In this document: positions 3,218 through 38,094 of the stretch, piece after piece
Position numbering within the stretch: position 1 is the stretch's first letter
Layout: each line of letters starts with the position of its first letter
NCBI RefSeq assembly: GCF_003634695.1
Contig: NZ_RBWV01000003.1
Location: 1 to 50,111, forward strand
Direction: 5' to 3'
Length of the DNA: 50,111 nt
Source of the DNA: Motilibacter peucedani
Lineage (GTDB): Bacteria > Actinomycetota > Actinomycetes > Motilibacterales > Motilibacteraceae
The notes under the pieces: generated by a model
Told to the model about the DNA's origin: nothing
Databases searched by the model: none
What the model saw: the letters and a program-made list of their open reading frames with translations, nothing else
Program-made: the position numbers and the translations under genes

Positions 3218-3533
3218 CGGGGCCGAGTCTCGTCCCGGCGTCATCGGCGGACACAGCGGTGCGACTGAAGGATCTTCAGCAGAGTGTCGGCGAGCTGCGT
3301 TGGCGCCTCAAGGACGCGGGACGAAACGGAAGCCATGTCGAGCACAGTCCGGAGGCTCGACCGTCCAGGCCCTGAGCCTTGCCTACGGCTCATGCCGCCG
3401 ACAGGGGGCGCGGCAACGTCTGCGCGCAAGCAGCGAACGTAAGGCACCACGCCGGGCGGGGTGTCACTGCGCGCTGTGCGACGACAGCTCTTCTGACCAA
3501 GCGGGCAGTGCAAGCAGCGGAAACTGCGCCTGT
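3218..3533. other. intergenic region
   Basis: About 315 bases lie between the tail of the rightward hypothetical gene and the tail of the leftward transfer operon. A 90-codon leftward frame exists, but its composition (no conserved pattern, many Arg/Ser) looks like chance. Nothing else is supported. Confidence 0.35.
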
Positions 3534-23560: not shown

Positions 23561-24775
23561 ATGCCCGCGGCCGCCCCTACGGGCGGCACCCCGGCCTACC
23601 GTGAGGCGAGGCGCCGCGCCCGCCACCGCTCGGCCCAGCGCACAGCGCTCGCGCAGGTGGGCCCTGCGGCGGCGCTCCCCCGTGGCTCGGTCCGTGCAAA
23701 GGGACAGGCCGCATGGGTAGCCGCGGTCGCCGCCCACCCCGACACCGCGCTGCTGCGCGCCGACGCGCACACCAACCTGCGCTCGATCGCCGCCACGCTC
23801 GCTCGCTATGCCGACTGGAACGAGCTGACCTCACGGCCCACCTGGGCGCGGCTCGCCGCCCTGGCCGGCGTCTCCGAGCGCACCGTCGCCCGCTGGACCG
23901 CCTGGCTGCGCCAGCGCGGCCTGCTCGGCGTCGTCGAGACCGGCTCCACACCCGCGACCCGGCCGATGGCCCTGCGCGACGTCGAGGGCAACCGCGCCGC
24001 GCTCTACCTGCTCTGCCACCCCGTCTCTCTTGGCAGCGCCGCTCGACACCCGCAGGCCAGCGACCCCCGCCTCAGCGAGCCCACGCTTGTTGCTCCTGTG
24101 GATGAAAGTGGCATGCCCTCTGGCCCAGCTCCGCAGGAGATGCGCCAGAACGGGCGCGCAGGCGCGGTATTGAGCCAAGCGCCGCTTCGCGGCGTGGCGA
24201 TGACAACCAGGCCAACGAACCCCGCAGAGCCCCCAGCGGGGTCAGAAGACCCCGTCAGCACCCCAGGAGCCACTCAGGAAGCCAAGAGCGCCAGGACGAC
24301 AGCCTGGGGCCGGCACACGCCCGCCCGCACCCGTCGCGACATGCTCGCCCTCGTCGACCGGCTCCAGGCTGAAGGCCCCGTCTACCGCGCCGTCGGCTCC
24401 CCCCGCCGCCTGCGGCACCTGCTCCGCCCCTGGCTCAACGCCGGCTGGACCATCGCCGGACTCGAGTGGGCCATAGACCACAAGCCCGACGGCGAGCCCT
24501 GGCGCTACGCCTGGCGCAGCGTCGACGAGCTCCGCAATCCCGCTGGCTGGCTCCGCCACCGCCTCCGCCGCTGGACCACCGAGGACGGCGCACCCCTGCC
24601 GGACCCCCGAGCCACTCCCCCAGCGCCGCAGCCCGTGCCTCAGCGACCGGCGTCCTCGTCTGCTGGCCCGAACGCCGAAGCCCGCGTGTTGCTCGCTGCC
24701 GCACGCGCCAAGGCGGCGGCCGCGACCCGCACCCGCCGCCCGCGGACGTACGACCTGCTGCCGACACTGCCGTGA
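23561..24775 (+). CDS. Rep-like helix-turn-helix protein
   Basis: A 404-residue protein resembling actinobacterial plasmid replication proteins. Residues about 70-130 read TNLRSIAATLARYADWNELT, then SRPTWARLAALAGVSERTVA and RWTAWLRQRGLLGVVETGST, a DNA-binding winged helix-turn-helix. The central 100 residues are low complexity. Residues 250-345 form a second domain (ARTRRDMLALVDRLQAEGPV, LRHLLRPWLNAGWTIAGLEWA, RYAWRSVDELRNPAGWLRHR). The tail is Ala/Arg-rich. Its likely role is replication initiation. The start is uncertain because the frame is open upstream without a good ribosome site. Confidence 0.7.
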   Translation: MPAAAPTGGTPAYREARRRARHRSAQRTALAQVGPAAALPRGSVRAKGQAAWVAAVAAHPDTALLRADAHTNLRSIAATLARYADWNELTSRPTWARLAALAGVSERTVARWTAWLRQRGLLGVVETGSTPATRPMALRDVEGNRAALYLLCHPVSLGSAARHPQASDPRLSEPTLVAPVDESGMPSGPAPQEMRQNGRAGAVLSQAPLRGVAMTTRPTNPAEPPAGSEDPVSTPGATQEAKSARTTAWGRHTPARTRRDMLALVDRLQAEGPVYRAVGSPRRLRHLLRPWLNAGWTIAGLEWAIDHKPDGEPWRYAWRSVDELRNPAGWLRHRLRRWTTEDGAPLPDPRATPPAPQPVPQRPASSSAGPNAEARVLLAAARAKAAAATRTRRPRTYDLLPTLP

Positions 24776-24847
24776 GGCGCAGGCCCCGACGAGACCAAGG
24801 TCTTGGTCGGCCGGCAGGGCCGCGCAGGCGTCCCGCACACTGCACGT

Positions 24848-25042
24848 GTGGTGTTGAAACTCTGCGAGGTGCTGCATCAGGGGCGCTGGTACCCCGGCGA
24901 GGTCCTCACCTGGCAGCACATCGGAGAGCGCTGGCGAGCAGTCGTGCGCTACCGGGTCGCACCCGGCGAGCAGTACCAGCAGGCCCGCTGGCAGGACGAG
25001 TTGCGGCCGGGAGGCGAACCCCTACGCGTTGTCGGTGACTGA
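24848..25042 (+). CDS. small hypothetical protein (64 aa)
   Basis: A 64-residue protein: KLCEVLHQGRWYPGEVLTWQ, then ERWRAVVRYRVAPGEQYQQ and ARWQDEL. The GRWYPGxVLxW...WRAVVRYR phrase looks like a small beta-rich fold and recalls short proteins seen beside Rep-like genes in actinobacterial plasmids. GTG at 24848 or 24851 are the possible starts; a TTG at 24803 would add 15 residues. Its 3' end overlaps the tail of the convergent DUF1508 gene by 21 bp. Confidence 0.55.
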   Translation: MVLKLCEVLHQGRWYPGEVLTWQHIGERWRAVVRYRVAPGEQYQQARWQDELRPGGEPLRVVGD

Positions 25043-25201
25043 GCCCGCGTAGCCGCCTGACAGCAGCTTCTCCAGCGTGGAGCGGGCGTCGGCCTTCGAG
25101 CTGTAGCCCTGGCCGCCGTCAGTGGCGACGACCTGGCCGTTGCTCGCCGTCACCCTGAACCCGAACTTGCCGTCCGCGCGCTTGAACAGTTCGCCAGCCA
25201 T
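25022..25201 (-). CDS. DUF1508 (YegP-like) protein
   Basis: A 59-residue protein, MAGELFKRADGKFGFRVTAS, then NGQVVATDGGQGYSSKADAR. This is the single-repeat YegP/DUF1508 fold: F-K-xx-G-K-F-xF-R...NGxxIATSxGYSSKAxA. The family's function is not established. ATG at 25201 is preceded by AGGAGAGGGG. A longer frame to 25417 is upstream DNA without family match. It is a stand-alone leftward gene between rightward ones. Confidence 0.8.
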   Translation of the reverse strand: MAGELFKRADGKFGFRVTASNGQVVATDGGQGYSSKADARSTLEKLLSGGYAGSVTDNA

Positions 25202-25330
25202 CACGCAGCCCCTCTCCTCGCCGGCCTTCGGCGATCGGGCGGTGCCTACCGCAGCGAAGATCACCGTAATCCTCGCGATGCGCCCCGTCGGTGCCCTCCC
25301 CCGGGTGCGTGAACCTGCGAGACTTCTGCG

Positions 25331-25639
25331 GTGTCCCAGGACCCGGACGAGCGACAGCGGCTGCTCGACGAGCCCGGCAGCGGTGACGACTTGCCGATCG
25401 CCGTCTCGGCCTACCAAGCGCAGAAGTGCGCAGCGATCATCGAGGCTGCCCTACACGGCCAGATCGGCTACGACGCGCCCGCCCAGACCGCCTTGCAGTT
25501 CCTGCGGCACGCGGCCAGCGAAGCCGCTCTAGGGCTCGGGCGCATACACCCCACCAGCTCGTCGCTCTGGACCTCGCTGCGCGAAGTTCCCTGGCCACCG
25601 CCCGGCGGCCCGCGGCCCCAGCCCGACGTCTCGGAGTAG
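25331..25639 (+). CDS. hypothetical protein (102 aa)
   Basis: A 102-residue acidic protein with no recognised domain. The middle is helical (VSAYQAQKCAAIIEAALHGQ, then APAQTALQFLRHAASEAALG). The start is GTG at 25331. It is divergent from the DUF1508 gene and ends 20 bp before the first CTAG array, so it may be the gene preceding the partition region. Codon composition looks like its neighbours. Confidence 0.5.
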   Translation: MSQDPDERQRLLDEPGSGDDLPIAVSAYQAQKCAAIIEAALHGQIGYDAPAQTALQFLRHAASEAALGLGRIHPTSSSLWTSLREVPWPPPGGPRPQPDVSE

Positions 25640-25658
25640 GCCGCTCCGCCAAGCGCTC

Positions 25659-25706
25659 CTAGCGTGCCTAGTGTTCCTAGCCTAGTTAGCCGATCTAGTC
25701 GATTAG
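25659..25706. repeat. 9-bp-phased CTAG array A, upstream of parB
   Basis: CTAG, CTAG, CTAG, TTAG and CTAG begin at 25659, 25668, 25677, 25686 and 25695, then TTAG at 25703. This is nearly perfect 9-bp spacing. The 379-bp direct repeat starts inside this array (25667). It is a candidate centromere or operator for a partition DNA-binding protein. Confidence 0.75.
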
Positions 25707-26045
25707 TCACCCTACAGAGCACGGCCCTGGCGGGCCTACGCATCGGAGCCGGCTACGCCGGCGCGGAAGAGCTCATCGGTTCTTCCCTCCCGGCAATCGA
25801 TGCTGGGGCCCCGCAGCCTGCGCGCAACCGCCCTCGCCTGCGGCGCCGGCCGCCTCCGAACCATCACCCGCTGCGCTCCCTGCGGTCGCTGAGCCCGCGG
25901 GTGATCGTTCTCGTCGCCTGACCGGACGGTTGCACTCCAGCTGCTCTACGGGCCCCTTCATCTCTTCTTGCCGGGAGGGGGCGACAGCGGTCGGACACCC
26001 CAGGTCCACCACCCACCACCCGGCAGGAAGGAGCCCACCGTGGCT
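25667..26045 (+). repeat. 379-bp direct repeat, copy 1 (parB promoter and leader)
   Basis: By eye this is identical to 30105-30483 with a constant 4438-bp offset and no indel. It runs from the second iteron of array A, through a leader, to the ribosome site (AGGAAGGAG), the GTG start and the first codons of the ParB gene. Internal inverted repeats include GCCGGC/GCCGGC (25748-25762), GGAAGA/TCTTCC (25765-25786) and ATCACCCGC/GCGGGTGAT (25863-25905). The 330-base leader is therefore structured and could be regulatory RNA. Outside the repeat the two flanks are unrelated. Confidence 0.9.
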
Positions 26046-27677
26046 CAGCACAGCAGCACCATCGAGGCGGGCACCGGCGCGACCGTCGCCTACCTCGACG
26101 CGGACCCCTGCATCCTGCTGGTGGACGTGAACGTCCGCACGCAGGTCCGGCTCGACAAGGAGTTCGTCGCCAGTGTCAAGGCCCAGGGGGTCCTGGTGCC
26201 GATCGTCGCGGTCCGCACCACCGAGGGCGCGCTGCGCGTCCGGTACGGCCACCGGCGCACCCTCGCGGCGATCGAGACCGGGCGAGAGACGGTCCCCGTG
26301 ATCGTCGCCGCCGACGAGTCCACCGACGACGCCGGGCAGATCGACCGGCTCGTGGGCCAGTACGCCGAGAACGAGCACCGCACCGGGCTGACCGTGGCCG
26401 AGAAGGTCGGGGTGGTGGAGCAGTTGAGCGCGTTCGGCGTCAGCCACGCGCAGATCAGCAAGCGGCTCGGCATCAAGCGCGACACCGTGAAGGACGCCCT
26501 CGCCGTCGCCGCCTCCCCCATCGCCAAGAAGGCAGCCGAGCGGTACGAGGCCACCCTCACCCTCGACCAGGCCGCTGTCGTGGCCGAGTTCGACGCCCTC
26601 GCCGACGAGGACACCGTCAAGGCCCTGCTGGTCGACGCCAACACCGGCGGGCGGCAGTTCGCGCACATCGCGCAGCGCGCCCGTGACGAGCGCGCCGAGC
26701 AGGAGCGCCGCCAGGAGTTCATCGCCTCCCTCGGCGGAGTGCCCATCGTGGAGCGCCCCTCCTACCGCAACGACGAGCCGGTCAAGCGCCTGGGCAGACT
26801 TCTCGACCAGCAGGGCGAGCCGCTGACCGTCGAGACGCACGCCGCGTGCCTCGGCCACGCGGCCTACGTGGACAAGCGCACCGCGTGGGTCCCGGCCCCT
26901 CGCCCCGAGTCCGACACCACCGGCGAGCAGGGCGGTCAGGACACCGAGGACGACGACAACGCGCTCGGTGCGACCGACCTCGACCTCGACCCCGACGCGG
27001 AGGACGCCCTCTACGACGACGACGAGGACGACTACCCCGAGGACGAGCAGGACGGCTCCTGGGAGGAGACCTGGGAGGCGGAGTACGTCTGCACCGACCC
27101 CAGCCGCTACGGGCACACCGCCCGCTACGGCGGCAGCAGCGAGGCCGCTCCGCTCAAGGCCGCTGAGATGAGCGAGGAGCAGCGCGAGGAAGCCCGCGAG
27201 GCCCGCCGCACGGTGATCGCCAACAACAAGGCGTGGGACAGCGCCACCACCGTCCGCCAGGAGTGGCTGACCGGCTGGCTCACCCGGAAGTCCGCCCCTA
27301 AGGGCAGCGGGCTGTTCCTCGCCGCCGCCGTCGCGTCCGGCTCCCACGCGCTGACCCAGGCGTTCGAGCGCAACCACCCCACCGGGCGGGTGCTGCTCGG
27401 GCTGGGTGAGGCCACCAGCGCCCGCATCGGCGCGGGCCAGGCGCTCGCCGGGCTGCTCAGCGACGTGTCCGAGGCCCGCGCCCAGGTCGTCACCCTCGGC
27501 CTGGTCCTCGGCGCGCACGAGGCCGCTCTCGGGCGGCACTCCTGGCGCAACGTCGACAGCGGCACCCGCCGCTACCTGACGTTCCTGGCCGAGAACGGCT
27601 ACGGCCTGTCCGACGTGGAGCGCCTGGCCTGCGGTGAGCACCCGCTCCCCGAGGTCGACGAGCCCGACGCCGCCTAG
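26040..27677 (+). CDS. parB: ParB/Spo0J-like partition protein
   Basis: A 545-residue protein. Residues 25-118 form the ParB N-terminal domain (YGHRRTLAAIE at 69-79 and the ENEHRTGLT arginine-patch region at 111-119). Residues 130-155 are a helix-turn-helix (VSHAQISKRLGIKRDTVKDAL). Unlike usual ParBs of about 300 residues, a very acidic linker (near 305-350, rich in D and E) and a long C-terminal helical domain follow. GTG at 26040 has AGGAAGGAG just before it, all inside the 379-bp repeat. It probably binds the CTAG arrays nearby; that is inference. A terminator follows at 27687-27712. Confidence 0.8.
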   Translation: MAQHSSTIEAGTGATVAYLDADPCILLVDVNVRTQVRLDKEFVASVKAQGVLVPIVAVRTTEGALRVRYGHRRTLAAIETGRETVPVIVAADESTDDAGQIDRLVGQYAENEHRTGLTVAEKVGVVEQLSAFGVSHAQISKRLGIKRDTVKDALAVAASPIAKKAAERYEATLTLDQAAVVAEFDALADEDTVKALLVDANTGGRQFAHIAQRARDERAEQERRQEFIASLGGVPIVERPSYRNDEPVKRLGRLLDQQGEPLTVETHAACLGHAAYVDKRTAWVPAPRPESDTTGEQGGQDTEDDDNALGATDLDLDPDAEDALYDDDEDDYPEDEQDGSWEETWEAEYVCTDPSRYGHTARYGGSSEAAPLKAAEMSEEQREEAREARRTVIANNKAWDSATTVRQEWLTGWLTRKSAPKGSGLFLAAAVASGSHALTQAFERNHPTGRVLLGLGEATSARIGAGQALAGLLSDVSEARAQVVTLGLVLGAHEAALGRHSWRNVDSGTRRYLTFLAENGYGLSDVERLACGEHPLPEVDEPDAA

Positions 27678-27686
27678 CCGCTAGGG

Positions 27687-27712
27687 CCGGGGAGGGAGCG
27701 ATTCCTCCCCGG
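27687..27712 (+). terminator. terminator after parB
   Basis: A perfect 9-bp stem CCGGGGAGG/CCTCCCCGG with an 8-base loop starts 10 bp after the parB stop. It fits a factor-independent or hairpin-type actinobacterial terminator. Confidence 0.7.
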
Positions 27713-27729
27713 TCGACGGCGGGCGGGAG

Positions 27730-27760
27730 CGGCTGTGGGGGCATCGAGCCCCCACAACCG
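27730..27760. terminator. second hairpin after parB, ATCGA loop
   Basis: A 13-bp stem with one C-A mismatch (CGGCTGTGGGGGC against GCCCCCACAACCG) closes on the loop ATCGA. A similar hairpin with the same loop follows the DUF4192 gene (31473-31507). It may be a second terminator or a structured RNA element. Confidence 0.5.
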
Positions 27761-27828
27761 CGAACGCCACTCCCAGCCGCCGGGCAGCGCCGGCGCGACA
27801 CACCGAGCAGGTTCCCACCACCGACCGC

Positions 27829-27881
27829 CTAGCGGCCCTAGCGTGCCTAGTGACGCTAACTAGCGCAGGTAGCGCAGATAG
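27829..27881. repeat. 9-bp-phased CTAG array B, upstream of parA
   Basis: CTAG begins at 27829, 27838 and 27847, then CTAA at 27856. A second phase follows with CTAG at 27860, GTAG at 27869 and ATAG at 27878. All steps within a phase are 9 bp. The last unit overlaps the parA ribosome site (ATAGGAGG), so a bound protein would block parA expression. Confidence 0.75.
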
Positions 27882-27890
27882 GAGGCTCAG

Positions 27891-28679
27891 GTGCCAGCCA
27901 GGATCGCAGTCGCGAACCAAAAGGGCGGCGTGGGCAAGACGAGCGTGACCCTCGGCCTCGCTGCAGCCGCGAGCCGCCGCGGCGACCGGGCTCTCGTCAT
28001 CGACCTCGACCCCCAAGCGAACGCGACGACCGCCCTCGGCATCGAGCCCGACGACGCCGCGCTCACCGTCAACGACGTACTCGCCGTGTCCCGCGCCGGG
28101 AGCCTCGGCGACGTCATCACGGCCAGCGCGTGGGAAGGGGTCGACGTCGCGCCCAGCACGCTCGACCTGTCCAACCGCGACCTCGACGGAGCCCACGACT
28201 TACCGTTCCGGCTCCGCGAGGGACTCCAAGGCATCGACCTCGAGCGCTACGCCGTCGTCCTCATCGACTGCCCGCCGAGCGTCGGCCGGCTCCTGCTCAC
28301 CGGGCTCGTCACCGCCTCCCACGCCCTGCTCGTCACCGACGCCACCGCCGACGGGCTGCGCGGCATCGGCAACGTCGAGAGCACCGTCGAGCTCGTCGCC
28401 AAGCACATGAGTCCCGGCCTGCGGATCGCCGGCATCGTGCTCAACCGCCGCCGCCATACCGGCGAGCAGGACTACCGCGAGGCCGAGCTGCGCGAAGCCT
28501 TCGGAACCCTGGTCACCGACGTCGTGCTCCCCGAGCGCGCCGCCCTGCCCGCCGCCCACGCTGCGGCCCAGCCCATCGGCTCCACTGCCAACGAGGGCGC
28601 CCGCGTCCTGACCACCCTGTTCGAGGACCTCTACGCCGACGTCCTCGCCCGCACCGCCACCGCAGGAGTCGCGTCGTGA
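27891..28679 (+). CDS. parA: ParA partition ATPase
   Basis: A 262-residue deviant Walker ATPase. NQKGGVGKTS at 9-18 is the Walker A' motif with the signature lysine. VIDLDPQANATTAL at 36-49 and VVLIDCPPS near 120 are the A' and B strands. It lacks an N-terminal helix-turn-helix, so it is the small (type Ib-like) class whose partner regulates transcription. The GTG at 27891 follows ATAGGAGG. It is coupled to the next gene by a GTGA overlap. It moves plasmid copies apart with its DNA-binding partner(s). Confidence 0.9.
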   Translation: MPARIAVANQKGGVGKTSVTLGLAAAASRRGDRALVIDLDPQANATTALGIEPDDAALTVNDVLAVSRAGSLGDVITASAWEGVDVAPSTLDLSNRDLDGAHDLPFRLREGLQGIDLERYAVVLIDCPPSVGRLLLTGLVTASHALLVTDATADGLRGIGNVESTVELVAKHMSPGLRIAGIVLNRRRHTGEQDYREAELREAFGTLVTDVVLPERAALPAAHAAAQPIGSTANEGARVLTTLFEDLYADVLARTATAGVAS

Positions 28680-28969
28680 GCCCCGAGCGCAAGCCCGCCC
28701 TCAAGCGTCGCACCGAGCTGCACCCCGTCGAAGCCCTAGCAGCGGCAGCCAACGAGACGACTACAGCTCCCGCCGCTGCACCCGCCAGCGAGCGACCCAC
28801 GGGCGAGTCCGTCGGCAAGGTTCAGTTGAACGTCGCCGTCACCAGTGCCGTCCGCGGCCGCGCGCAGCGAGGCGCCCTCACCCTCGGCGCCCGCGAAGGC
28901 CGGCGCATCGGCCTCGCCGAGCTCGTCACCGCCGCGCTCGAGGAGTACCTCGACAAGCACGGTCTCTAG
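28676..28969 (+). CDS. small ribbon-helix-helix partition partner
   Basis: A 97-residue protein with a flexible Ala/Thr-rich N-terminus of about 45 residues and a folded C-terminus: GKVQLNVAVTSAVRGRAQRG, then ALTLGAREGRRIGLAELVTA and ALEEYLDKHGL. The strand-helix-helix order suits a ribbon-helix-helix DNA-binding protein like ParG or similar partners of small ParAs. The GTG at 28676 overlaps the parA stop by 4 bp. A strong terminator (29035-29070) closes the operon, and CTAG array C lies right behind it. It is an alternative candidate for binding the CTAG arrays. Confidence 0.7.
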   Translation: MSPERKPALKRRTELHPVEALAAAANETTTAPAAAPASERPTGESVGKVQLNVAVTSAVRGRAQRGALTLGAREGRRIGLAELVTAALEEYLDKHGL

Positions 28970-29034
28970 AACTCCCGCGCGGGCCAGAGCAATCTGGCCG
29001 CCTGGGCGCGCCGCACTGGGGTTGCGGCTCAAGC

Positions 29035-29070
29035 GAGGGACCCGGCTACTGGGAAATAGCCGGGTCCCTC
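29035..29070 (+). terminator. strong terminator after the parA operon
   Basis: A perfect 14-bp stem (GAGGGACCCGGCTA with TAGCCGGGTCCCTC) and an 8-base loop CTGGGAAA, 66 bp after the stop of the RHH gene. It is among the strongest hairpins in the window. Confidence 0.8.
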
Positions 29071-29079
29071 TCGCTATTC

Positions 29080-29110
29080 CTAGTCCCACTAGTAGTCCTA
29101 GTCTAGTTAG
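29080..29110. repeat. 9-bp-phased CTAG array C, downstream of the parA operon
   Basis: CTAG begins at 29080, 29089 and 29098, then TTAG at 29107, with steps of exactly 9 bp. It sits directly behind the terminator, where no promoter for the par operon is needed, which argues for a centromere-like rather than only an operator role. Confidence 0.7.
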
Positions 29111-29209
29111 GCAAAACGCGCCCTTCCGCAGCCTCATAGGTGGACGGCCCTAGGCAAGCGTGTGACGACTTGCGGACGTCGGGGACTGCGCTCTGCGAGG
29201 ATCCGGTCT

Positions 29210-30013
29210 GTGATCACCTTCAACGACATCCTGCGTGCTGGCGGGGTGGATCCCAGTCGAGTGAAGTTGCTGCGACACACGGAGAAGGGCCAACAGCTGC
29301 TCGAGCTGTGGCGTGCCAACAGGCCCTTGGTCGAGGCCTATCAGAGTCGGCAGAAGACCGGGTTCTTGGACGGCGTGGACCACGTCGCCTGCTTCCTCGT
29401 CAGCCGTGATGGCCGCGAGGTCTTCGGTGGGCTCTACCGCGTCGGTGCCTGGGAAGCGGCTCCGCCAGGCGACCGCGACCCGATCACTGGTGAGGTGGAC
29501 GTTCACCGCGCAATCTACGAGCTCACCGCCGAGCCAGCGTTCGCACCCTATGAAGATCGACTCGTAATCCGTTGGTATCTCGCAGGCAAGCACCCTGGGT
29601 TTTGGCAGTGGGCGGACAAGCAGCCGAAGCCGGTCGAAGAAATCGCAACCCAACAGGAGCGTGCGTTCCCCGGCTGGCTGGAGTTCTCGAGCCCTGTAGA
29701 CGACCTCGACCTCCTGCCGAGGACGTGGCGGGAAGTGCTGCGCTCAACGTCCGGCGTATACCTGCTCACTGATGCTCGTGGCAAGCACTACGTGGGTTCG
29801 GCCAAGGGCGGCGACGGCTTCCTCGGTCGCTGGGACGCTTACCGGGGCGGCCGACCCGGAGGAAACGTCGGGCTGGTTGGAGCTGCTGGCCCGTTCGCCG
29901 TCTCGGTGCTCCAGACCTTCGACCCCAGTACGTCGGACCAGTCCGTCGAGCGGGTGGAGTCGCTCTGGAAGGACAAGCTCGGCGCCCGGCTTGTCGGCTA
30001 CAACCGCAACTAG
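29210..30013 (+). CDS. GIY-YIG nuclease family protein
   Basis: A 267-residue protein. The C-terminal domain has GVYLL at 182-186 and HYVGSA at 193-198 (the GIY and YIG strands), an arginine in FLGRWDAY, and E250 in SVERVESLWKDKLG as the metal-binding glutamate. The N-terminal domain begins ITFNDILRAGGVDPSRVKLL and contains HVACFLVSRDG and FGGLYRVG, a pattern I associate with stand-alone GIY-YIG proteins near restriction genes. It probably cuts DNA. GTG at 29210 is chosen for its AGGA site; the frame to 29162 lacks one. It lies inside the segment bounded by the 379-bp repeats and may be defence cargo. Confidence 0.8.
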   Translation: MITFNDILRAGGVDPSRVKLLRHTEKGQQLLELWRANRPLVEAYQSRQKTGFLDGVDHVACFLVSRDGREVFGGLYRVGAWEAAPPGDRDPITGEVDVHRAIYELTAEPAFAPYEDRLVIRWYLAGKHPGFWQWADKQPKPVEEIATQQERAFPGWLEFSSPVDDLDLLPRTWREVLRSTSGVYLLTDARGKHYVGSAKGGDGFLGRWDAYRGGRPGGNVGLVGAAGPFAVSVLQTFDPSTSDQSVERVESLWKDKLGARLVGYNRN

Positions 30014-30096
30014 CCTCCGTTGAGCCGAGCCTGGCCGCCACGGCGCGCGGTGCAGGCCTCCTCCCGAGGTTGGTCGTTGCCGACGTCGAGACGCCC

Positions 30097-30144
30097 CTAG
30101 GCGTCCTAGTGTTCCTAGCCTAGTTAGCCGATCTAGTCGATTAG
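30097..30144. repeat. 9-bp-phased CTAG array D, upstream of the DUF4192 gene
   Basis: CTAG begins at 30097, 30106 and 30115, TTAG at 30124, CTAG at 30133 and TTAG at 30141. It equals array A except in the first unit, where the long repeat begins. Duplication may have been started by recombination between arrays. Confidence 0.75.
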
Positions 30145-30483
30145 TCACCCTACAGAGCACGGCCCTGGCGGGCCTACGCATCGGAGCCGGCTACGCCGGC
30201 GCGGAAGAGCTCATCGGTTCTTCCCTCCCGGCAATCGATGCTGGGGCCCCGCAGCCTGCGCGCAACCGCCCTCGCCTGCGGCGCCGGCCGCCTCCGAACC
30301 ATCACCCGCTGCGCTCCCTGCGGTCGCTGAGCCCGCGGGTGATCGTTCTCGTCGCCTGACCGGACGGTTGCACTCCAGCTGCTCTACGGGCCCCTTCATC
30401 TCTTCTTGCCGGGAGGGGGCGACAGCGGTCGGACACCCCAGGTCCACCACCCACCACCCGGCAGGAAGGAGCCCACCGTGGCT
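30105..30483 (+). repeat. 379-bp direct repeat, copy 2 (DUF4192 promoter and leader)
   Basis: This is identical by eye to 25667-26045, ending at the same ribosome site and GTG but followed by a different gene. The DUF4192 gene thus shares promoter, leader and start codon with parB and should be co-expressed with it. Homologous recombination between the copies would delete or excise 4438 bp, carrying parB, parA, the RHH gene and the GIY-YIG gene. Confidence 0.9.
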
Positions 30484-31395
30484 ACCACCATCGAGCGGGT
30501 CCGCCTCACCGAGCCCCGCCAGGCCGTCGAGGCGATCCCGTACCTGCTCGGCTTCCACCCCAGCGAGTCGCTGGTCGTGCTCGGCCTGCGCGACGGTCGC
30601 GTCGCCGTCGCGCTCCGGGTCGACCTCGATAGCCCCGAGGACCTGCTGCGCGACGCCGCCCGCACGTTGCTGCGCCACAGCATCACCGCCGGCCTTCTCG
30701 TCATCTGGACCGCCCAGCCCGACGTTGAGGTCGCGGCGATCAGCGGCCCGATCCTGCGCCTGTGGGAGCGCGACGGGTTTCTCGTCCCGGCCGTGCTGGT
30801 CACCGACGGCACCGTCCTGCACAGTGAGAACGGTGTGCAGCGGCTGAACTTCACCGACACCCCGCTCGCGGCCCCCGCCGTCGCGGCGGGCACCCACCCG
30901 CTACCCAGCCGGGACGCGCTGGTTGAGAGCATCGAGGGCGAGCCCGCCACCGACCCCACCGCCCGCCAAGCCACCGCCACCGACTGGCTCACCGCGGCGA
31001 CAGCCTTCCACGCCGACCCAGCGGCCACGCTGCCCGACGAGGCCACCGCATCCCTGCTCAACAGCCTCGACGGCCCTGACCGACTGCTCCGCGACCGGGT
31101 CCTGGCATCCCTGGTCGGGGGAGAGGACGCCGTCGTCCCCGCCGTCGTCCCCGCGGCCCTGGTCACCTACCTGGCGCGCCGTGCCCGCCCCAGGGACGCC
31201 GGGATCCACTGCCTGCAGGCCACGTCGGCCCTGCTCGCTGGATCCAGCATCGTCGCGCACGCCGCCCTCGACCGCGTGCACGTCGAGCACAGCCTCACCG
31301 TGCTGCTCCGCCAGATGACCGACCTCGGAACTCCGCCGCAGGCCGTCGCCGCCGTCCTCGTACAGGTCGCGAACGAGGCCGGTCCGCTGGCCTAG
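30478..31395 (+). CDS. DUF4192 family protein
   Basis: A 305-residue protein. The first 110 residues (IERVRLTEPRQAVEAIPYLL, GFHPSESLVVLGLRDGRVAV, ALRVDL) are the conserved start of DUF4192, a family found in actinobacteria and their plasmids with no established function. The last 100 residues are helical (TYLARRARPRDAGIHCLQAT, AAVLVQVANEAG). GTG at 30478 follows AGGAAGGAG. Because its whole promoter is a copy of the parB promoter, a link to plasmid maintenance is likely. A terminator follows at 31406. Confidence 0.8.
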   Translation: MATTIERVRLTEPRQAVEAIPYLLGFHPSESLVVLGLRDGRVAVALRVDLDSPEDLLRDAARTLLRHSITAGLLVIWTAQPDVEVAAISGPILRLWERDGFLVPAVLVTDGTVLHSENGVQRLNFTDTPLAAPAVAAGTHPLPSRDALVESIEGEPATDPTARQATATDWLTAATAFHADPAATLPDEATASLLNSLDGPDRLLRDRVLASLVGGEDAVVPAVVPAALVTYLARRARPRDAGIHCLQATSALLAGSSIVAHAALDRVHVEHSLTVLLRQMTDLGTPPQAVAAVLVQVANEAGPLA

Positions 31396-31405
31396 CCACG
31401 GCGAG

Positions 31406-31433
31406 GGGCGGGTGCCGTCAGTGGCACCCGCCC
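31406..31433 (+). terminator. terminator after the DUF4192 gene
   Basis: A perfect 11-bp stem GGGCGGGTGCC/GGCACCCGCCC with loop GTCAGT, 10 bp after the stop codon. Confidence 0.75.
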
Positions 31434-31472
31434 TGCGTGGGAGCGCGCGGCGACCCGGTTGAAGCCGGGGGA

Positions 31473-31507
31473 GCGGTGCCCGGCGCCATCGAGGCGCCGG
31501 GCACCGC
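31473..31507. terminator. 15-bp perfect hairpin with ATCGA loop
   Basis: GCGGTGCCCGGCGCC pairs perfectly with GGCGCCGGGCACCGC around loop ATCGA. It is the second hairpin after DUF4192, as 27730-27760 is the second after parB, and both have the same loop. A terminator, or a binding or processing element, is possible. Confidence 0.6.
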
Positions 31508-31880
31508 ACGCCGCGACGGAGCGCGGCGACAGGAACCGGCTCCGCCGGTGCTGAAGGCCTACTCGAAAGCGGCCCGTCGGCTGCACGGCGTACGCCGCCT
31601 GAGGACGTCGACGCGGAACGCCACGACCAGCGCCGCATCTGCACGTCTTCGCTCACGTCAGCCTCGTCGTCGGCCGCCCGCAGTGGACCTGTGCCCCCTG
31701 CGCGTGTACGACCGCGAGGTCGCCACCGGGGGAGTGGCTCTCGTCAGCGGCCGTCTCGGTGGGTTGTGCCGACGCCGCGCGGCCGACAGCCGCGCGGCCG
31801 ACAGCCGCGAGCAGCGCAGCGGGCCAGGCGGTCCGCGCGGCGGTCCAGGTCAGGTGGGTGGCGTACGCCAGGATGTGAGC

Positions 31881-33545
31881 ATGTCTCACCCGCCCGCCCC
31901 GCTCGCTGACACCCCAGCGCTGAGGAAGGCTCGCGGAGCCTTCTTCACTCCCGACGAGATCACTGCCTTCATGGCGCAGTGGGCAATCACGTCGGTCGAG
32001 GATCACGTTCTTGATCCATCTGCCGGCGACGCGGCCTTCCTGTCGGCTGCGGTGACGCGGCTGCGTGAGCTCGGCGGCGAGTCTGGAGGCCAGCCTGTCG
32101 TCGACGGCGTCGAGATCCACGAGCAGTCCGCCCGCATCGGTCGCGCCCGGGTGCGCGCGGCCGGCGGAGACGCTCGGTTCCGCGTCTCAGACTTCTTCCT
32201 GGTGTCTCCCTCGCCCACGTACGACGCGGTGATCGGGAACCCGCCCTACGTGCGCTATCAGGGCTGGACCGGCCCAGCGCGCTCGCGCTCGCGTGAAGCG
32301 GCCTTGCAAGCCGGTGTCTCTCTGACGGGGCTTGCTTCGAGCTGGGCTGCGTTCACGGTGCACTCAGCTCTGTTCTTGAAGGAGGGTGGCCGGCTGGCAC
32401 TAGTTCTGCCGGCCGAGCTGCTGTCGGTGAACTACGCCGCTCCGGTCCGGCGGTTCCTGTTTGATCACTTCCGTTCCGTTGAGCTGGTCCTGTTCGACGA
32501 GCAGGTGTTTCCCGAGGCTGAGGCTGACGTAGTGCTGCTCCTGGCCGACGGGTACGGGCTAGGCCCGACCGACCACGCAGTCATCCGCCAAGCTCGCGGC
32601 GCTCGTGACCTGCGCACCCTCGGCGCCGGGACGACGTGGACTCCGCCGGACCCGTCAGGGAAGTGGACCGGCTCGCTCGTCAGCGCTGCGGCCATCGAGC
32701 CGCTGGCCGGCCTCGCCGCCTCAGGGTTGTTCAGCTCGCTGGAGACGTGGGGGGACACGACGCTCGGCATCGTGACAGGCGCCAACAGCTACTTCACACT
32801 GTCACCGGCTCGTGTCAGCGAGCTTGGCCTACGCCGCAGCGAGCTGCTGCGCCTGTCTCCGCCCGGATCCGCGCACCTTCGTGGCTTGGTGCTGTCGGCT
32901 CGCATGCTCACCCGCCTAGGTGCTGCCGGACAATCGACCTACCTTTTTTATCCCGGCCAGAAGCCCTCTCCGGCAGCCATGCGTTACATCGAGATGGGTC
33001 ATGCCACCGGGGTCGATGACGCCTACAAGTGCCGTGTCCGCAGGACGTGGTACCAGGTACCGCTCGTACGCCCAGCAGACCTGTTGCTGACTTGCATGAA
33101 CGCAGACACCCCACGTCTGACCACCAACCAGGCTCAGGCTCACCACCTCAACTCTGTGCACGGTGTGTACCTCCGTCAGCCACACCGCGAACTAGGTGCC
33201 GACCTGCTTCCGCTGGCGAGCCTCAACTCCTTGACACTGCTCAACGCGGAGATGGTCGGCCGTTCATACGGCGGCGGCATCCTGAAGCTGGAGCCCAAGG
33301 AAGCTGACGTGTGGAGCGTGCCGTCCCCCAACCTGGTCGCCGACCGCGCCGATGCACTGCGGCTGATCCGCCGCCAGGTCGCTCGCACCCTTCGGGTGGG
33401 TCGCCTGCTCGACGCGGTCGCGATGGTCGACGACGTGTTGCTCGTCGCCCCAGGTCACCTGAGCACGGCGCAAGTCGCCCACGTGCGTAACGCACGAGAC
33501 GAGCTTGTGCGCCGACGGATGACGAGGTCGAACGGTGCCAAGTAG
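31881..33545 (+). CDS. N6-adenine DNA methyltransferase (type II-like)
   Basis: A 554-residue protein. RGAFFTPDEITAFMAQWA at 19-36 is the FTP-type start of gamma-class enzymes. VLDPSAGDAAFL at 43-54 is the SAM-binding motif I, and GNPPYVRYQGW at 119-129 is catalytic motif IV (NPPY). A target-recognition-like C-terminus follows (LGIVTGANSYFTLSPARVSE, VHGVYLRQPH). It transfers methyl groups to adenine N6 in DNA. ATG at 31881 is chosen over a 702-codon frame because motifs begin after it and AGGA precedes it. The next gene overlaps by 11 bp and is the likely cognate endonuclease. Confidence 0.85.
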   Translation: MSHPPAPLADTPALRKARGAFFTPDEITAFMAQWAITSVEDHVLDPSAGDAAFLSAAVTRLRELGGESGGQPVVDGVEIHEQSARIGRARVRAAGGDARFRVSDFFLVSPSPTYDAVIGNPPYVRYQGWTGPARSRSREAALQAGVSLTGLASSWAAFTVHSALFLKEGGRLALVLPAELLSVNYAAPVRRFLFDHFRSVELVLFDEQVFPEAEADVVLLLADGYGLGPTDHAVIRQARGARDLRTLGAGTTWTPPDPSGKWTGSLVSAAAIEPLAGLAASGLFSSLETWGDTTLGIVTGANSYFTLSPARVSELGLRRSELLRLSPPGSAHLRGLVLSARMLTRLGAAGQSTYLFYPGQKPSPAAMRYIEMGHATGVDDAYKCRVRRTWYQVPLVRPADLLLTCMNADTPRLTTNQAQAHHLNSVHGVYLRQPHRELGADLLPLASLNSLTLLNAEMVGRSYGGGILKLEPKEADVWSVPSPNLVADRADALRLIRRQVARTLRVGRLLDAVAMVDDVLLVAPGHLSTAQVAHVRNARDELVRRRMTRSNGAK

Positions 33546-34590
33546 CAAGGCGTCGGCGAAGGTCCTAGCTTGGCCACTGTTCGACCGCATCGTGGCCGAC
33601 GCGATGGACGGCGGCGACTACACCAACCCGTGGTCGAAGCGGCCGGACGGAACCTTCGTCTTCGAACCCGACTACGGCACCCTTAGACGCCTGCTCGGGG
33701 TGCCCCTCTACCTCAAGGCCCCCACTACCACCGGCGTCCCCGCGCTCGCGCTCGATGTGTGGATCGCCTACGAGCTGCGCCGCGCAGGGTTCGACCCCGA
33801 CGCCGTCTGGCCGCGCGCGACCCACCCTCGCATCCTGCCCGGACCGATCGCCCGACTGCTGGAGAAGGACCTCCTCCCTGCGAAGATTCGTGATCCTTTG
33901 CAGGCCCGGTTGATGAAGGAGGGCAACGTCAAGGGCGTCACGCACTCCAGCGCATCGATCCTCGGAAAGAACTACCTCAAGCAAGTCGACGTGATCATGA
34001 CCGACTGGGCCACCGGTCCGGAGCTGCTCATCTCGACCAAGCGAATGGACTCCTCGTACGGCAAGAACGCGCCGAACCGAGTGGAGGAGTCCTACGGGGA
34101 CGCGAAAAACCTGCGCTTGCGCCACCCTCTAGCGGCTCTGGGTTTCGCGTTCGGTCTGCGCACCGACATCTTCACGAAGGAACCAGAAACCGCCGACTGG
34201 CTGCTTGACCTGCTCGCCAAGCTCGGCCGCGAGGAAGACGCCTACCGCGCTACCTGCGTGATCCTGATGGACTACGGCCAAGACGTCACACTGCCTGACG
34301 ACGCCGAGGGCAGCGACGACGGGGAGGACCGCAGCGCCGCAGCCGGGCTCGTCGATCAACCCGCCGAAGAGGAAGAGCCGGTCGAGGTTCCCAGGTCACA
34401 GGTCGAGCAGCAACTCGCTGAGCTCCCTCCCGTGCGGATCGACCACGACAGGACACCCGCGAGCCTCTCCCCAGCAACGTTCCTCGCAACGCTCGTTGAG
34501 CATGTGCTCGACCAGACACCAGTCAACATGCACCGAGGCGCACGCTTACGACGCCGAGACGCGGCGCTGCAGCGGGCTAAGTCGAGTTGA
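33535..34590 (+). CDS. probable restriction endonuclease partner
   Basis: A 351-residue protein. KNYLKQVDVIMTDWATGPEL, then LLISTKRMDSSYGKNAPNR contain a PD-(D/E)XK-like core: D152, E163 and K169. The usual ExK is here SxK (S167-T-K169), as in variants where the acid has moved. RVEESYGDAKNLRLRHPLAA follows. Residues 265-300 are acidic. It starts with GTG inside the methyltransferase end, 11-bp overlap, so the two are made together and form a restriction-modification pair. I do not recognise the recognition sequence or a named endonuclease family. Confidence 0.7.
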   Translation: MPSSKASAKVLAWPLFDRIVADAMDGGDYTNPWSKRPDGTFVFEPDYGTLRRLLGVPLYLKAPTTTGVPALALDVWIAYELRRAGFDPDAVWPRATHPRILPGPIARLLEKDLLPAKIRDPLQARLMKEGNVKGVTHSSASILGKNYLKQVDVIMTDWATGPELLISTKRMDSSYGKNAPNRVEESYGDAKNLRLRHPLAALGFAFGLRTDIFTKEPETADWLLDLLAKLGREEDAYRATCVILMDYGQDVTLPDDAEGSDDGEDRSAAAGLVDQPAEEEEPVEVPRSQVEQQLAELPPVRIDHDRTPASLSPATFLATLVEHVLDQTPVNMHRGARLRRRDAALQRAKSS

Positions 34591-34628
34591 CTTGTCCCCA
34601 CCTGAGTGCGTGACGGAGAGGAGTCCAC

Positions 34629-35885
34629 GTGCCGCTGCTCCCTGACGGCTTCGACTGGAGCGCTGCGTACGCACTCGCTGCGCAACCCGAGACGGAAGCA
34701 GACTTCGCAGCCCTGCGACTCACCTCTCGGACCTACATCAGCAAGACCTTCCTCTTGCAGCACGGCACCGTCCAAGACCTCGGCCAGCCCGCACGGTATG
34801 TCCATCGTGTGTTCGACCACCGAGTGATCAGTGAGGGCACACCCGAAGACGACTACGAGTGGACGGAGTACGTGGTGCGTGAGTCTCCCGGAGGAAGGGT
34901 GCAGATCACGCTGCAGGTGGCTAGAACCGCTGGCGCGGTCCGAAAGATACAGCTCCGACGGGTAACCACCACGAAGGCAGGAAGCGCCCTCGAAACCCTT
35001 GTCGAGTTCGACCGTACTGAATCTTCGCGTCTGGTCTCGCTCATCAAGCTGCTCGATGACATCCCGATCGAGGGCGACACGACCGTCTTGGTGGATGACG
35101 ACTTGGTGCGCGACCTTGCCGACCACCCCGAGGCTCTCCAAGCTCTGTACGCCCACGACCCTGAGCGCTTTCGGCGCTTCATCGAGAGTGACGTGTCCGC
35201 GGAAGATCTCGTCGCCGTCGCCTACCGCCGGGGTGAGGTTGAAGAGTTCCGCAACCTGCTGCATGACGACGACTACTTCGACCTCGCGGCAACATCTGCC
35301 GGCGGGCCCGAGAAGGTGTGGCAGCAGTTCCTCGAGCGCAACCCGTGGGTGCTCGGCTTAGGCCTCTCCGGTCAACTGTTAACGTCTTGGGACGACGAGA
35401 AACTGGAGCGAACGGTCGCCGGCAGCTCGGTGGTCGGCGCAGGTAAGCGGGTAGACGCCCTGTTGCAGACGAATGGCCGGCTGAACATGCTGGCCTTCGC
35501 GGAGATCAAGCACCACCGCACCCCGCTGCTGCACCACGACCAGTACCGCGCCGGCTGCTGGGCACCCTCGCACGACCTCTCGGGCGGCGTCACTCAGGTG
35601 CAACAGACCGTCCACCGAGCCCTCGACACGATCGGGGAACGGCTGCACGTGCGGGGAGCCGACGGGGCCGAGACCGGCCAAGTGGCCTTCCTCATGCAAC
35701 CCCGCTCGTACCTGATCGTGGGGCACCTCAACCAGTTGACCGGCGTTGGCGGCGTGCACCCTGAGAAGCATCGCTCTTTCGAGGTCTATCGCCAGAACCT
35801 GCATCGACCCGAGATCGTCACCTTCGATGAGTTGCTCGCCCGCGCCGAGTGGAGCGTTGCTCTAGCGGAGAGTTCTGGGGGATAG
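34629..35885 (+). CDS. Shedu-like nuclease (DUF4263)
   Basis: A 418-residue protein. The C-terminal DUF4263 domain starts near 225: EKVWQQFLERNPWVLGLGLS, then GKRVDALLQTNGRL, LAFAEIKHH and YRAGCWAPSHDLSGGVTQVQ. D276, E292 and K294 form the PD-(D/E)XK site. The N-terminal half (DDYEWTEYVVRESP, LVSLIKLLDDIP) is the sensing part typical of long SduA proteins. Shedu is a known single-gene phage-defence system with nuclease activity. GTG at 34629 follows GGAGAGGAG. It lies 38 bp after the endonuclease gene, so restriction and Shedu may be co-transcribed. A weak hairpin GGCCGA/TCGGCC follows at 35898-35914. Confidence 0.88.
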   Translation: MPLLPDGFDWSAAYALAAQPETEADFAALRLTSRTYISKTFLLQHGTVQDLGQPARYVHRVFDHRVISEGTPEDDYEWTEYVVRESPGGRVQITLQVARTAGAVRKIQLRRVTTTKAGSALETLVEFDRTESSRLVSLIKLLDDIPIEGDTTVLVDDDLVRDLADHPEALQALYAHDPERFRRFIESDVSAEDLVAVAYRRGEVEEFRNLLHDDDYFDLAATSAGGPEKVWQQFLERNPWVLGLGLSGQLLTSWDDEKLERTVAGSSVVGAGKRVDALLQTNGRLNMLAFAEIKHHRTPLLHHDQYRAGCWAPSHDLSGGVTQVQQTVHRALDTIGERLHVRGADGAETGQVAFLMQPRSYLIVGHLNQLTGVGGVHPEKHRSFEVYRQNLHRPEIVTFDELLARAEWSVALAESSGG

Positions 35886-36022
35886 AGCGCGACGCAAGGC
35901 CGATGGCTTCGGCCCTGCAGTCAGCTTCACTGCGCTTGCCGAAGCGGTAATGCGACAATCAAGCAGCATGACCAGTCACAACCACCGTCAACTAAACCCG
36001 CAGCAATCCCGTGTGGTGACCG

Positions 36023-37756: not shown

Positions 37757-37829
37757 CCCCCGACCGTAGCTGGAGCCAGCGGGCGTCGGGAAGGTTTGCT
37801 CTGCGTACGGTGTCCTCACGGATCGCGGT

Positions 37830-37851
37830 CCCGTAAACGGTCGTTTGCGGG
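37830..37851. promoter_or_regulatory. 22-bp near-palindrome upstream of AIPR
   Basis: The arms CCCGTAAACG and CGTTTGCGGG match at nine of ten positions around a GT centre. It lies 74-95 bp before the AIPR start codon and probably forms its operator. It shares CGTAAAC with the transfer operators but not their CTTAC half, so it is likely bound by a different protein. Confidence 0.55.
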
Positions 37852-37905
37852 ACTGATGCGCCGCGCAACCGGTCTGTGCCACAAACCTTGGCTGAGGGTC
37901 GGTTA

Positions 37906-37935
37906 CGTGACGTTGGTTTCGTGCACCAGTTCTGC
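37906..37935 (-). repeat. imperfect inverted repeat, left copy
   Basis: On the minus strand this reads GCAGAACTGGTGCACG then AAACCAACGTCACG. The 16-base core and most of the rest recur in inverted orientation at 40673-40704, next to a serine recombinase gene. It is a candidate recombination site or transposon end upstream of AIPR. Confidence 0.6.
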
Positions 37936-38094
37936 TACACGGGCTCACGCTCGGGCTTGCCTGCCGGCGGCGGGGGAGCGGGTGTGTAGCGAAAACGAAC
38001 AATTTCGGGATGCGGACCCAGCTGCCGCTCGCTCGTCGTCGGCTGCATGGTGTCGCTGCCGTCCTGGTGGCTTGTCGCAGCTCAACGGTCTCGT

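Follow-up and report, generated by a model that had tools for sequence, protein, structure and literature searches.

Phased 9-bp CTAG arrays around a ParA-RHH locus of Motilibacter peucedani as a probable type Ib plasmid centromere

Introduction

Partition proteins of the ribbon-helix-helix (RHH) class that serve as ParB (RHH-ParBs) are described, in the parts of the sources considered here, as binding DNA arrays statically, repressing their own operon and activating ParA through their N-terminus (PMC9499535, PMC5016525, PMC13245405), with par2 of pB171 as the type-I RHH-ParB reference (PMC13245405). For omega of pSM19035, the same body of text reports six arrays located at promoters and a need for at least four contiguous heptads for full stimulation of the ParA ATPase (PMC9499535). 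Here, we analyze a set of arrays in which the tetranucleotide CTAG recurs at 9-bp steps around a parA-rhh gene pair on contig NZ_RBWV01000003.1 of the actinobacterium Motilibacter peucedani; this 50,111-bp contig, one of 17 in the 4.19-Mb genome, is referred to below as the window. We find that the arrays are exactly phased, are linked to one ParA-RHH family, usually bracket the parA-rhh operon, and carry a box that changes together with the DNA-reading strand of the RHH protein. Very probably, the locus is a type Ib (RHH-ParB) partition system in which RHH dimers occupy the CTAG boxes and the arrays act as both centromere and operator; from the observations listed above we infer binding, stacking, repression, centromere action and control of the neighboring parB-like and DUF4192 genes.

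Phased CTAG arrays in the window

In the following, CTAG@9 denotes CTAG boxes forming a chain at a 9-bp step, and other boxes and steps are written in the same way. The pattern TAG-N6-TAG-N6-TAG has 19 matches over both strands of the window, compared to a mean of 0.01 and a maximum of 1 in 100 shuffled sequences. In-phase runs of at least three units are present at step 9 only (six TAG runs and five CTA runs), with zero runs at steps 5–8 and 10–12. A chain scan returned exactly five CTAG@9 arrays (6737–6776, 25659–25698, 27829–27859, 29080–29110 and 30097–30136) and no CTAG arrays at steps 7, 8, 10 or 11, the mean number of CTAG@9 arrays in 10 shuffles of the window being 0.0. A first-pass annotation of this DNA had described NTAG, mostly CTAG, boxes in 9-bp phase at positions 25659, 27829, 29080 and 30097. 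Run counts, chain scan and shuffles bear out these four places, and comparison of CTAG spacing with shuffled sequence puts the phased arrays far above chance; the count of four is to be extended by the array at 6737–6776. The accompanying statement that CTAG is rare in the remainder of the window holds as a reduction and not as an absence, since 76 occurrences are observed versus 101 expected under a second-order model, and 58 of the 76 lie outside the phased units. When the entire 4.19-Mb genome was searched for CTAG-N5-CTAG-N5-CTAG, all five places were on the array contig and none on the remaining 16 contigs, so that arrays of this kind do not recur elsewhere in the host genome. The reversed control pattern had seven matches per strand, but it equals a GATC pattern and is little informative.

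Every array in the window contains at least four in-phase boxes. The spacers differ from unit to unit while the 9-bp phase holds, indicating that the conserved features are the box and the step. The array before parA (27829–27881), proposed to be the main centromere and operator, consists of two phase blocks offset by 4 bp, one with three CTAG boxes and CTAA (27829–27859) and the other with CTAG, GTAG and ATAG (27860–27881). Its final box overlaps the parA Shine-Dalgarno sequence AGGAGG at 27880, ahead of the GTG start codon at 27891. The downstream array (29080–29110) has four in-phase boxes and is positioned 111 bp past the stop codon of the RHH gene. The array at 25659–25698, with five in-phase boxes, lies at the 5′ end of a leader preceding a gene for a ParB-like protein with a helix-turn-helix (HTH-ParB), and its copy at 30097–30136 has the same place in the leader before a DUF4192 gene. 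Both of them are within one repeated block (25654–25953 and 30092–30391, 98% identical over 300 nt) and thus are not independent, which leaves about four independent arrays. The fifth array (6737–6776) lies within a primase open reading frame (ORF; 4777–7134, minus strand) and corresponds to linker residues 120–133; 7 of the 14 codons in this segment end in T, versus 44 of 786 across the whole ORF. The primase itself is of the ArdC/DnaG type.

Chance or simple tandem duplication would be the most trivial explanation. A four-box pattern is found in 9 of 393 genomes of the class, M. peucedani included, and in six of the eight others the matches listed read as tandem repeats with near-identical spacers (genomes G297 and G329 being different). 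For the window, this explanation is refuted and its probability is negligible: here the spacers differ in each unit, shuffles yield next to no arrays, and tblastn searches with two ParA and two RHH queries against 1.5–3 kb around the four-box matches in those eight genomes gave no match.

The parA-rhh locus

The parA gene (27891–28679, plus strand) encodes a 262-aa Walker ATPase that matches AAA_31 (8e−35) and is 40–49% identical to 11 ParAs of actinobacterial plasmids. The AAA_31 match begins at residue 5, and the protein has no N-terminal DNA-binding domain. Overlapping parA by 4 bp is an ORF for a protein of 97 aa (28676–28969, plus strand), predicted from structural matches and from the alignment of relatives to be an RHH centromere-binding protein (ParB/ParG-like). 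It can be aligned with 16 small proteins whose genes lie behind parA, for the most part on actinobacterial plasmids, and over the resulting 17 family members R5, H16 and P17 of the N-terminal arm are invariant and R11 is nearly so. An AlphaFold2 model (five sequences) has a predicted local distance difference test score of about 50 in the arm and of 82–90 from residue 51 onwards, with helices at 57–74 and 80–94 and no strand assigned in the monomer. Structural re-alignment of residues 47–97 placed TraM, MatP, CopG, two NikR, ParD2 and TacA in the top seven positions (Z = 4.8–6.2, root-mean-square deviation 1.5–2.6), all of which we take to be RHH proteins. The strand sequence is Q-L-N-V-A for the window protein and, for most of the relatives, Q-H-N-V-R, which resembles the Q-x-N-x-R strand of Arc.

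With the window protein as the sole query, no plasmid relative was found, and in other genomes there were 29 marginal matches (the best at 6.1e−4), most of them inside long frames. With the family profile, 4 of the 393 genomes matched, the own genome included, of which only G265 was convincing (2.5e−35). Against PDB sequences, the window protein retrieved a transporter at E = 2.7 and the relative from locus L056 (relatives' loci are numbered with an L) a chance match, while an early version of the family profile retrieved a CopG-family RHH protein at 0.017, a value that became 0.9 once the profile comprised 17 rows. Behind the RHH gene there is a terminator-like hairpin (29035–29070, plus strand) with a 14-bp stem and without a T run, seen in the fold of 29000–29078 (z = −4.13); a scan for consensus terminators, the consensus being uninformative for this host, found none. 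Rfam searches over 24,700–31,500 yielded nothing at the gathering score. Given a Walker ParA without an N-terminal HTH, a small RHH gene behind it and upstream repeats, the locus is best read as a type Ib partition system. A 283-aa ORF without a Pfam match (29162–30013) separates the downstream array from the DUF4192 leader.

Arrays accompany the ParA-RHH pair in related plasmids

Using ParA as a tblastn query, we obtained as top-ranked hits plasmids from Gordonia, Tsukamurella, Mycobacterium, Rhodococcus, Prescottella and Dietzia. The RHH protein of Dietzia used as a query matched 73 plasmid records and, in a search against phages, none. Chain scans were run on the window and seven relatives, six of them whole plasmids and one represented by 50,000 of its 50,215 bp. 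CTAG@9 arrays numbered five in the window and 2, 2, 1, 4, 3, 2 and 3 in the relatives; across these eight sequences, CTAG at steps 7, 8, 10 and 11 gave zero arrays, and 10 shuffles of each sequence gave a mean of 0.0 for CTAG@9. A CTAG@9 array is present upstream of parA in all eight. In addition, six of the seven relatives have a second array that overlaps the RHH stop codon or is at most 30 bp from it, Dietzia having none there. Thus, the parA-rhh operon is usually bracketed by arrays, and this layout is common to plasmids of Gordonia, Rhodococcus, Dietzia, Nocardia and Mycobacterium. The claim of a downstream array is based on the chain scan together with loci L058, L061, L261, L263 and L053. 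Other motifs were also detected by the chain scan: six of the seven relatives have AGCT@9 (AGCT overlaps GCTAGC), L227 has TGCA@9 three times and TGCA@10 once, and L229 has TGCA@9 once and GATC@9 twice.

ParA homologues on genome contigs were considered as well; the analysis covered 45 of the 80 loci in this set, with L109–L143 and 80 viral loci left aside. CTAG or TGCA at 9–10 bp was the best combination in none of the 42 homologues L067–L108. These are mostly on long contigs, and their small ORFs read as lacking a partner of this RHH family, except perhaps in L069. Two ParG-type loci, L067 (Tomitella, 5931–5982) and L076 (Hoyosella, 5873–5892), have matches at an 8-bp step upstream of parA (CATG and TTAA, respectively), recorded without a shuffle test, and no CTAG or TGCA array.

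Apparent covariation of the array box with the DNA-reading strand of the RHH protein

To compare boxes with RHH sequences, we scored the region upstream of parA in 23 loci with 200 shuffles each and rescanned seven loci by chain scan. Residues are numbered according to the Dietzia protein (Q51, N53, V54 and R55), the window equivalents being Q50, N52, V53 and A54. All 15 loci with Val or Met at position 54, that is, immediately after the strand Asn, have CTAG@9, window included; in 14 of them CTAG@9 is the first or second combination in the shuffle scoring, and in L232 it was identified by chain scan. All eight loci with Thr (L061, L261, L262 and L263), Phe (L053 and L054) or Tyr (L055 and L064) at this position have TGCA. 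In this group, shuffle scoring gave TGCA@9 in L061, L261 and L263 and TGCA@10 in L053 and L054, and the chain scan alone gave TGCA at 9 bp in L262 and at 10 bp in L055 and L064, for both of which shuffle scoring was unclear. Downstream arrays agree with the upstream box, being TGCA@9 in L061, L261 and L263 and TGCA@10 in L053. In the ParG-type locus L059, the sole signal is TCGA, at steps of 6 and 9 bp, and we take it to be coding. As a separate observation, L262 (Rhodococcus pGA1) differs from its sister plasmids in having, before parA, a long higher-order tandem repeat (1705–2176) in which TGCA and ACGT boxes recur at 9 bp.

When 14 Q-type RHH proteins are set against 4 T-type ones, 10 of the 90 columns compared are disjoint, versus 7 of 260 in ParA. 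Three of the disjoint RHH columns (50, 51 and 54) fall in the strand, with E, Q and V in the Dietzia pII type and M, T and T in the R. ruber C1 type, and the window has the CTAG-type residue at 51 and 54. Position 54 was chosen after the data had been seen, and fits better than 51. Support in the ParA tree is 0.96 for the Thr clade and only 0.62 for its placement beside the Mycobacterium/Nocardia CTAG clade; the tree implies at least two changes of box, or one with a deep reversal. Judging by these alignments, the box appears to covary with the DNA-reading strand, which we regard as a strong lead and not as a statistic. A finer correspondence may exist at the third strand position, occupied by Arg in the CTAG relatives and by Ala in the window protein (A54): among 12 relatives, 126 of 172 flanks have a G beside the box, versus 10 of 36 in the window or, counted on distinct 8-mers, 49 of 78 versus 9 of 28 (Fisher p = 0.0075). 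As this concerns one lineage and the units are not independent, the possible pairing of strand Arg/Ala with flanking G is a lead only.

The same observations bear on the possibility that the arrays are iterons for replication, with a Rep protein as their binder. Directly repeated boxes that keep their phase on a plasmid do look iteron-like; however, in relatives the arrays flank parA-rhh on either side and differ according to the RHH strand, which makes iterons a very improbable explanation.

The HTH-ParB and DUF4192 genes and their leaders

Two genes adjoining the locus are possible regulatory targets. One is the HTH-ParB-like gene (26040–27677, plus strand, 545 aa), the product of which matches ParB_N (1.5e−5) and TIGR00180 (3.2e−14), both just below the curated cut-offs, and the other is the DUF4192 gene (30478–31395, plus strand; PF13830, 1.3e−26). 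The leader of the former (25654–26042, plus strand) has a near-identical copy (30092–30480) before the latter, and in both cases the array occupies the 5′ end of this leader, beginning about 380 bp upstream of the coding sequence. One possibility is a regulatory or RNA leader that is shared; the sequence has no Rfam match. In NZ_CP101476, a blastn match to the leader (2838–3083) is also found before a DUF6573 gene.

Since the HTH-ParB gene is situated between two arrays and its product carries a ParB N-terminal domain, this protein might itself bind the arrays as parS sites. To assess this, we sampled 4 of 288 records with an HTH-ParB homologue, taking stretches of 17–20 kb from two plasmids of Cellulosimicrobium and one each of Micromonospora and Prescottella. 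None of the four has a CTAG@9 array. In the two Cellulosimicrobium plasmids, the ParB and DUF4192 genes are present, but ParA, its partner and the arrays upstream of parA are different, the arrays being CATG/TGCA@8 in one and TGCA@9 in the other. In one of the Cellulosimicrobium plasmids (L255), the 8-bp CATG/TGCA boxes occur upstream of parA (1476–1553) and again behind the partner gene (3065–3460), that is, with the same bracketing at another step. In both Cellulosimicrobium plasmids, the leaders before the ParB and DUF4192 genes are about 70% identical over 58–65% of the block and lack CTAG arrays. The occurrence of the leader without an array elsewhere points to addition of the array to a leader that already existed. 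In the Micromonospora stretch there is one ACGT@8 match before its ParA, and in the Prescottella stretch none. Conversely, stretches from array-bearing relatives, for which the gene tables are incomplete, contain no annotated ParB. Furthermore, the HTH-ParBs of SCP1 are described, in the part of the source considered, as binding inverted repeats of 13 or 19 bp (PMC13245405). Binding of the arrays by the HTH-ParB is therefore quite unlikely, the arrays traveling with the ParA-RHH pair and not with the HTH-ParB. The first-pass annotation had suggested a centromere and autoregulation site for either ParB or the small RHH protein; the linkage to ParA-RHH and the strand covariation give good comparative support to the RHH half of this proposal, and the absence of CTAG@9 arrays from the 17–20-kb stretches of all four sampled homologue plasmids speaks against the HTH-ParB half.

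Proposed function of the arrays

In the scenario that we favor, each 9-bp unit would be occupied by a single RHH dimer sitting on its palindromic CTAG box. Given 10.5 bp per turn, a 9-bp step amounts to about −51 degrees, so that dimers stacked along an array would each be turned by about this angle from the previous one and would wind around the DNA in a shallow left-handed path. The geometry behind the initial idea of subunits winding around the DNA is thus sound, and the winding itself is what we infer from it. Together, the arrays over the parA ribosome site and behind the RHH gene would constitute the centromere, on which ParA may act via the N-terminal arms of the RHH protein. The RHH protein bound over the parA ribosome site would also repress parA-rhh, and the arrays at the HTH-ParB and DUF4192 leaders would place these genes under the same protein. 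Alternatively, the arrays could be operators only, with the RHH protein being a plasmid regulator and the centromere residing elsewhere. Arrays located at gene starts and leaders fit this alternative, and RHH-ParBs are described also as repressors in the part of PMC9499535 considered. Nevertheless, an array behind the RHH gene (as in six of the seven relatives) and an array inside an ORF would be poor operator sites, and we consider operators without a centromere unlikely, although less so than the parS or iteron alternatives.

A number of observations weigh against the combined centromere and operator role. With respect to location, the fifth array is within an ORF 21 kb away, and a promoter scan at the arrays, limited to the E. 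coli-type consensus and thus uninformative for this host, found none. In the 225 bp behind the RHH gene, CTAG@9 was matched by 42–79 of 200 shuffles in L060, L228, L065, L227, L229, L057 and L260 and by 15 of 200 in L063, and was outside the best two combinations in L056, L066 and L062; TGCA@9 of L262 was matched by 48 of 200 and TGCA@10 of L054 by 124 of 200. With respect to the protein, the RHH assignment is weak by sequence, the Pfam and NCBIfam search with the 97-aa protein having given no match; Foldseek with the model returned nothing at E ≤ 0.001, and the next row of the structural re-alignment, at Z = 4.4, is close below the RHH rows. The protein in that row presumably has an unrelated fold. 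As to the covariation, CTAG@8 ranks first in L259, the upstream array of L227 is weak (18 of 200 shuffles were as good), and ACGT@9 is best in the shuffle scoring of L262, in which the chain scan gives both TGCA@9 and ACGT@9. L069 (Q51 and Leu54) has no palindrome array at the threshold and irregular CTAGs behind the RHH gene. A rule associating Q51 with CTAG was dropped, as L055, L064 and L069 have Q without CTAG arrays. The counts are of plasmids and not of events, with two or three changes at most, and the clade placement that bears on the direction of the box switch has a support of only 0.62. Finally, several chromosome-like control loci outscored their shuffled versions, in most cases through TCGA or CCGG at 6 bp, which we read as coding periodicity.

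A wider scenario, which we put forward tentatively and hold to be less probable than not by a clear distance, is that a single RHH-ParB family sets centromere identity through few strand residues, above all the one after Asn (Val/Met for CTAG and Thr/Phe/Tyr for TGCA), with the step of 8, 9 or 10 bp set separately by dimer-dimer packing. Plasmids might then change compatibility by rewriting their arrays together, and in the window the same protein might also control the HTH-ParB, DUF4192 and possibly primase genes via dispersed arrays, one of them in coding sequence.

Type Ib systems, RHH-ParBs and iterated centromeres are known as a kind. What is new is a family without a Pfam or NCBIfam model, boxes that are palindromic and set apart by free spacers, the dispersal of the arrays, and the covariation of box and strand; among the papers listed in literature searches, judged by titles and the beginnings of abstracts, none describes CTAG arrays of this RHH family. 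The arrays would provide a readable centromere for an actinobacterial partition group that has no family model in these databases, and would make partition sites in plasmids of Rhodococcus, Gordonia, Dietzia, Nocardia and Mycobacterium searchable from DNA alone. Moreover, sister plasmids that differ in the box (CTAG or TGCA) and in few strand residues make centromere choice by RHH proteins, and plasmid compatibility, testable by residue swaps.

Contig context

Genes for a TraG/TraD-type coupling protein, the primase, ParA and ParB are all on the 50,111-bp contig, and a tRNA search of the contig found none. At the contig ends, no exact overlap of at least 9 bp was found, so that circularity is unproven. 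Based on gene content, and without an exact end overlap, we take the contig to be plasmid-like. The region 31437–38098 is likely a defence cluster, with an Eco57I-type methyltransferase (31437–33545), Shedu SduA (34629–35885) and an AIPR protein (36023–38098).

Comparison with known partition systems

The gene order and the position of the operator are as in RHH-ParB systems described in the parts of PMC5016525 and PMC9499535 considered here. ParF/ParG/parH of TP228 is similar in that a ParA-type ATPase is combined with an RHH protein having a flexible N-terminus, with repeats upstream and operator repeats (PMC5016525, in the part considered); it differs from the window, in which direct CTAG boxes have varied spacers. 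For par2 of pB171 (parC1-parA-parB-parC2), the portion of PMC4270457 considered names centromere sites on both sides of parA-parB, by the order in which its constructs are written; our arrays likewise flank parA-rhh. By contrast with the actinobacterial locus, pB171 is an enterobacterial plasmid. The par2 repeat also differs from the CTAG boxes of the window.

Another type Ib system is that of pCXC100 from Leifsonia xyli subsp. cynodontis, which is likewise actinobacterial and has an RHH ParB, and in which direct repeats alone, located ahead of the operon, form the centromere (PMC5016525, in the part considered). A downstream array and arrays at other genes, as observed in the window, are not mentioned for pCXC100 in that part of the source (PMC5016525). 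No chain of a pCXC100 ParB was among the PDB matches at E ≤ 10, its presence in the searched set being unchecked. The pCXC100 centromere repeats are reportedly 9 bp long.

The delta2/omega2 system of pSM19035 shares with the window a ParA, a small RHH protein and separate arrays, which in pSM19035 lie over promoters of different plasmid genes according to the part of PMC9499535 considered. Furthermore, at least four contiguous repeats are needed there (PMC9499535, in the same part), and at least four in-phase boxes are present in each window array. The repeats themselves differ: as far as the partial source goes, those of pSM19035 are non-palindromic 7-bp WATCACW heptads without gaps, in direct and inverted orientation, whereas those of the window are palindromic tetranucleotides with a 9-bp step and free spacers. 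Accordingly, the window has no run at the 7-bp step, its period being 9 and its core CTAG. Separate promoters are described for pSM19035 (PMC5016525, in the part considered), whereas parA and rhh overlap here. Despite its 9-bp period, the window system may work like omega.

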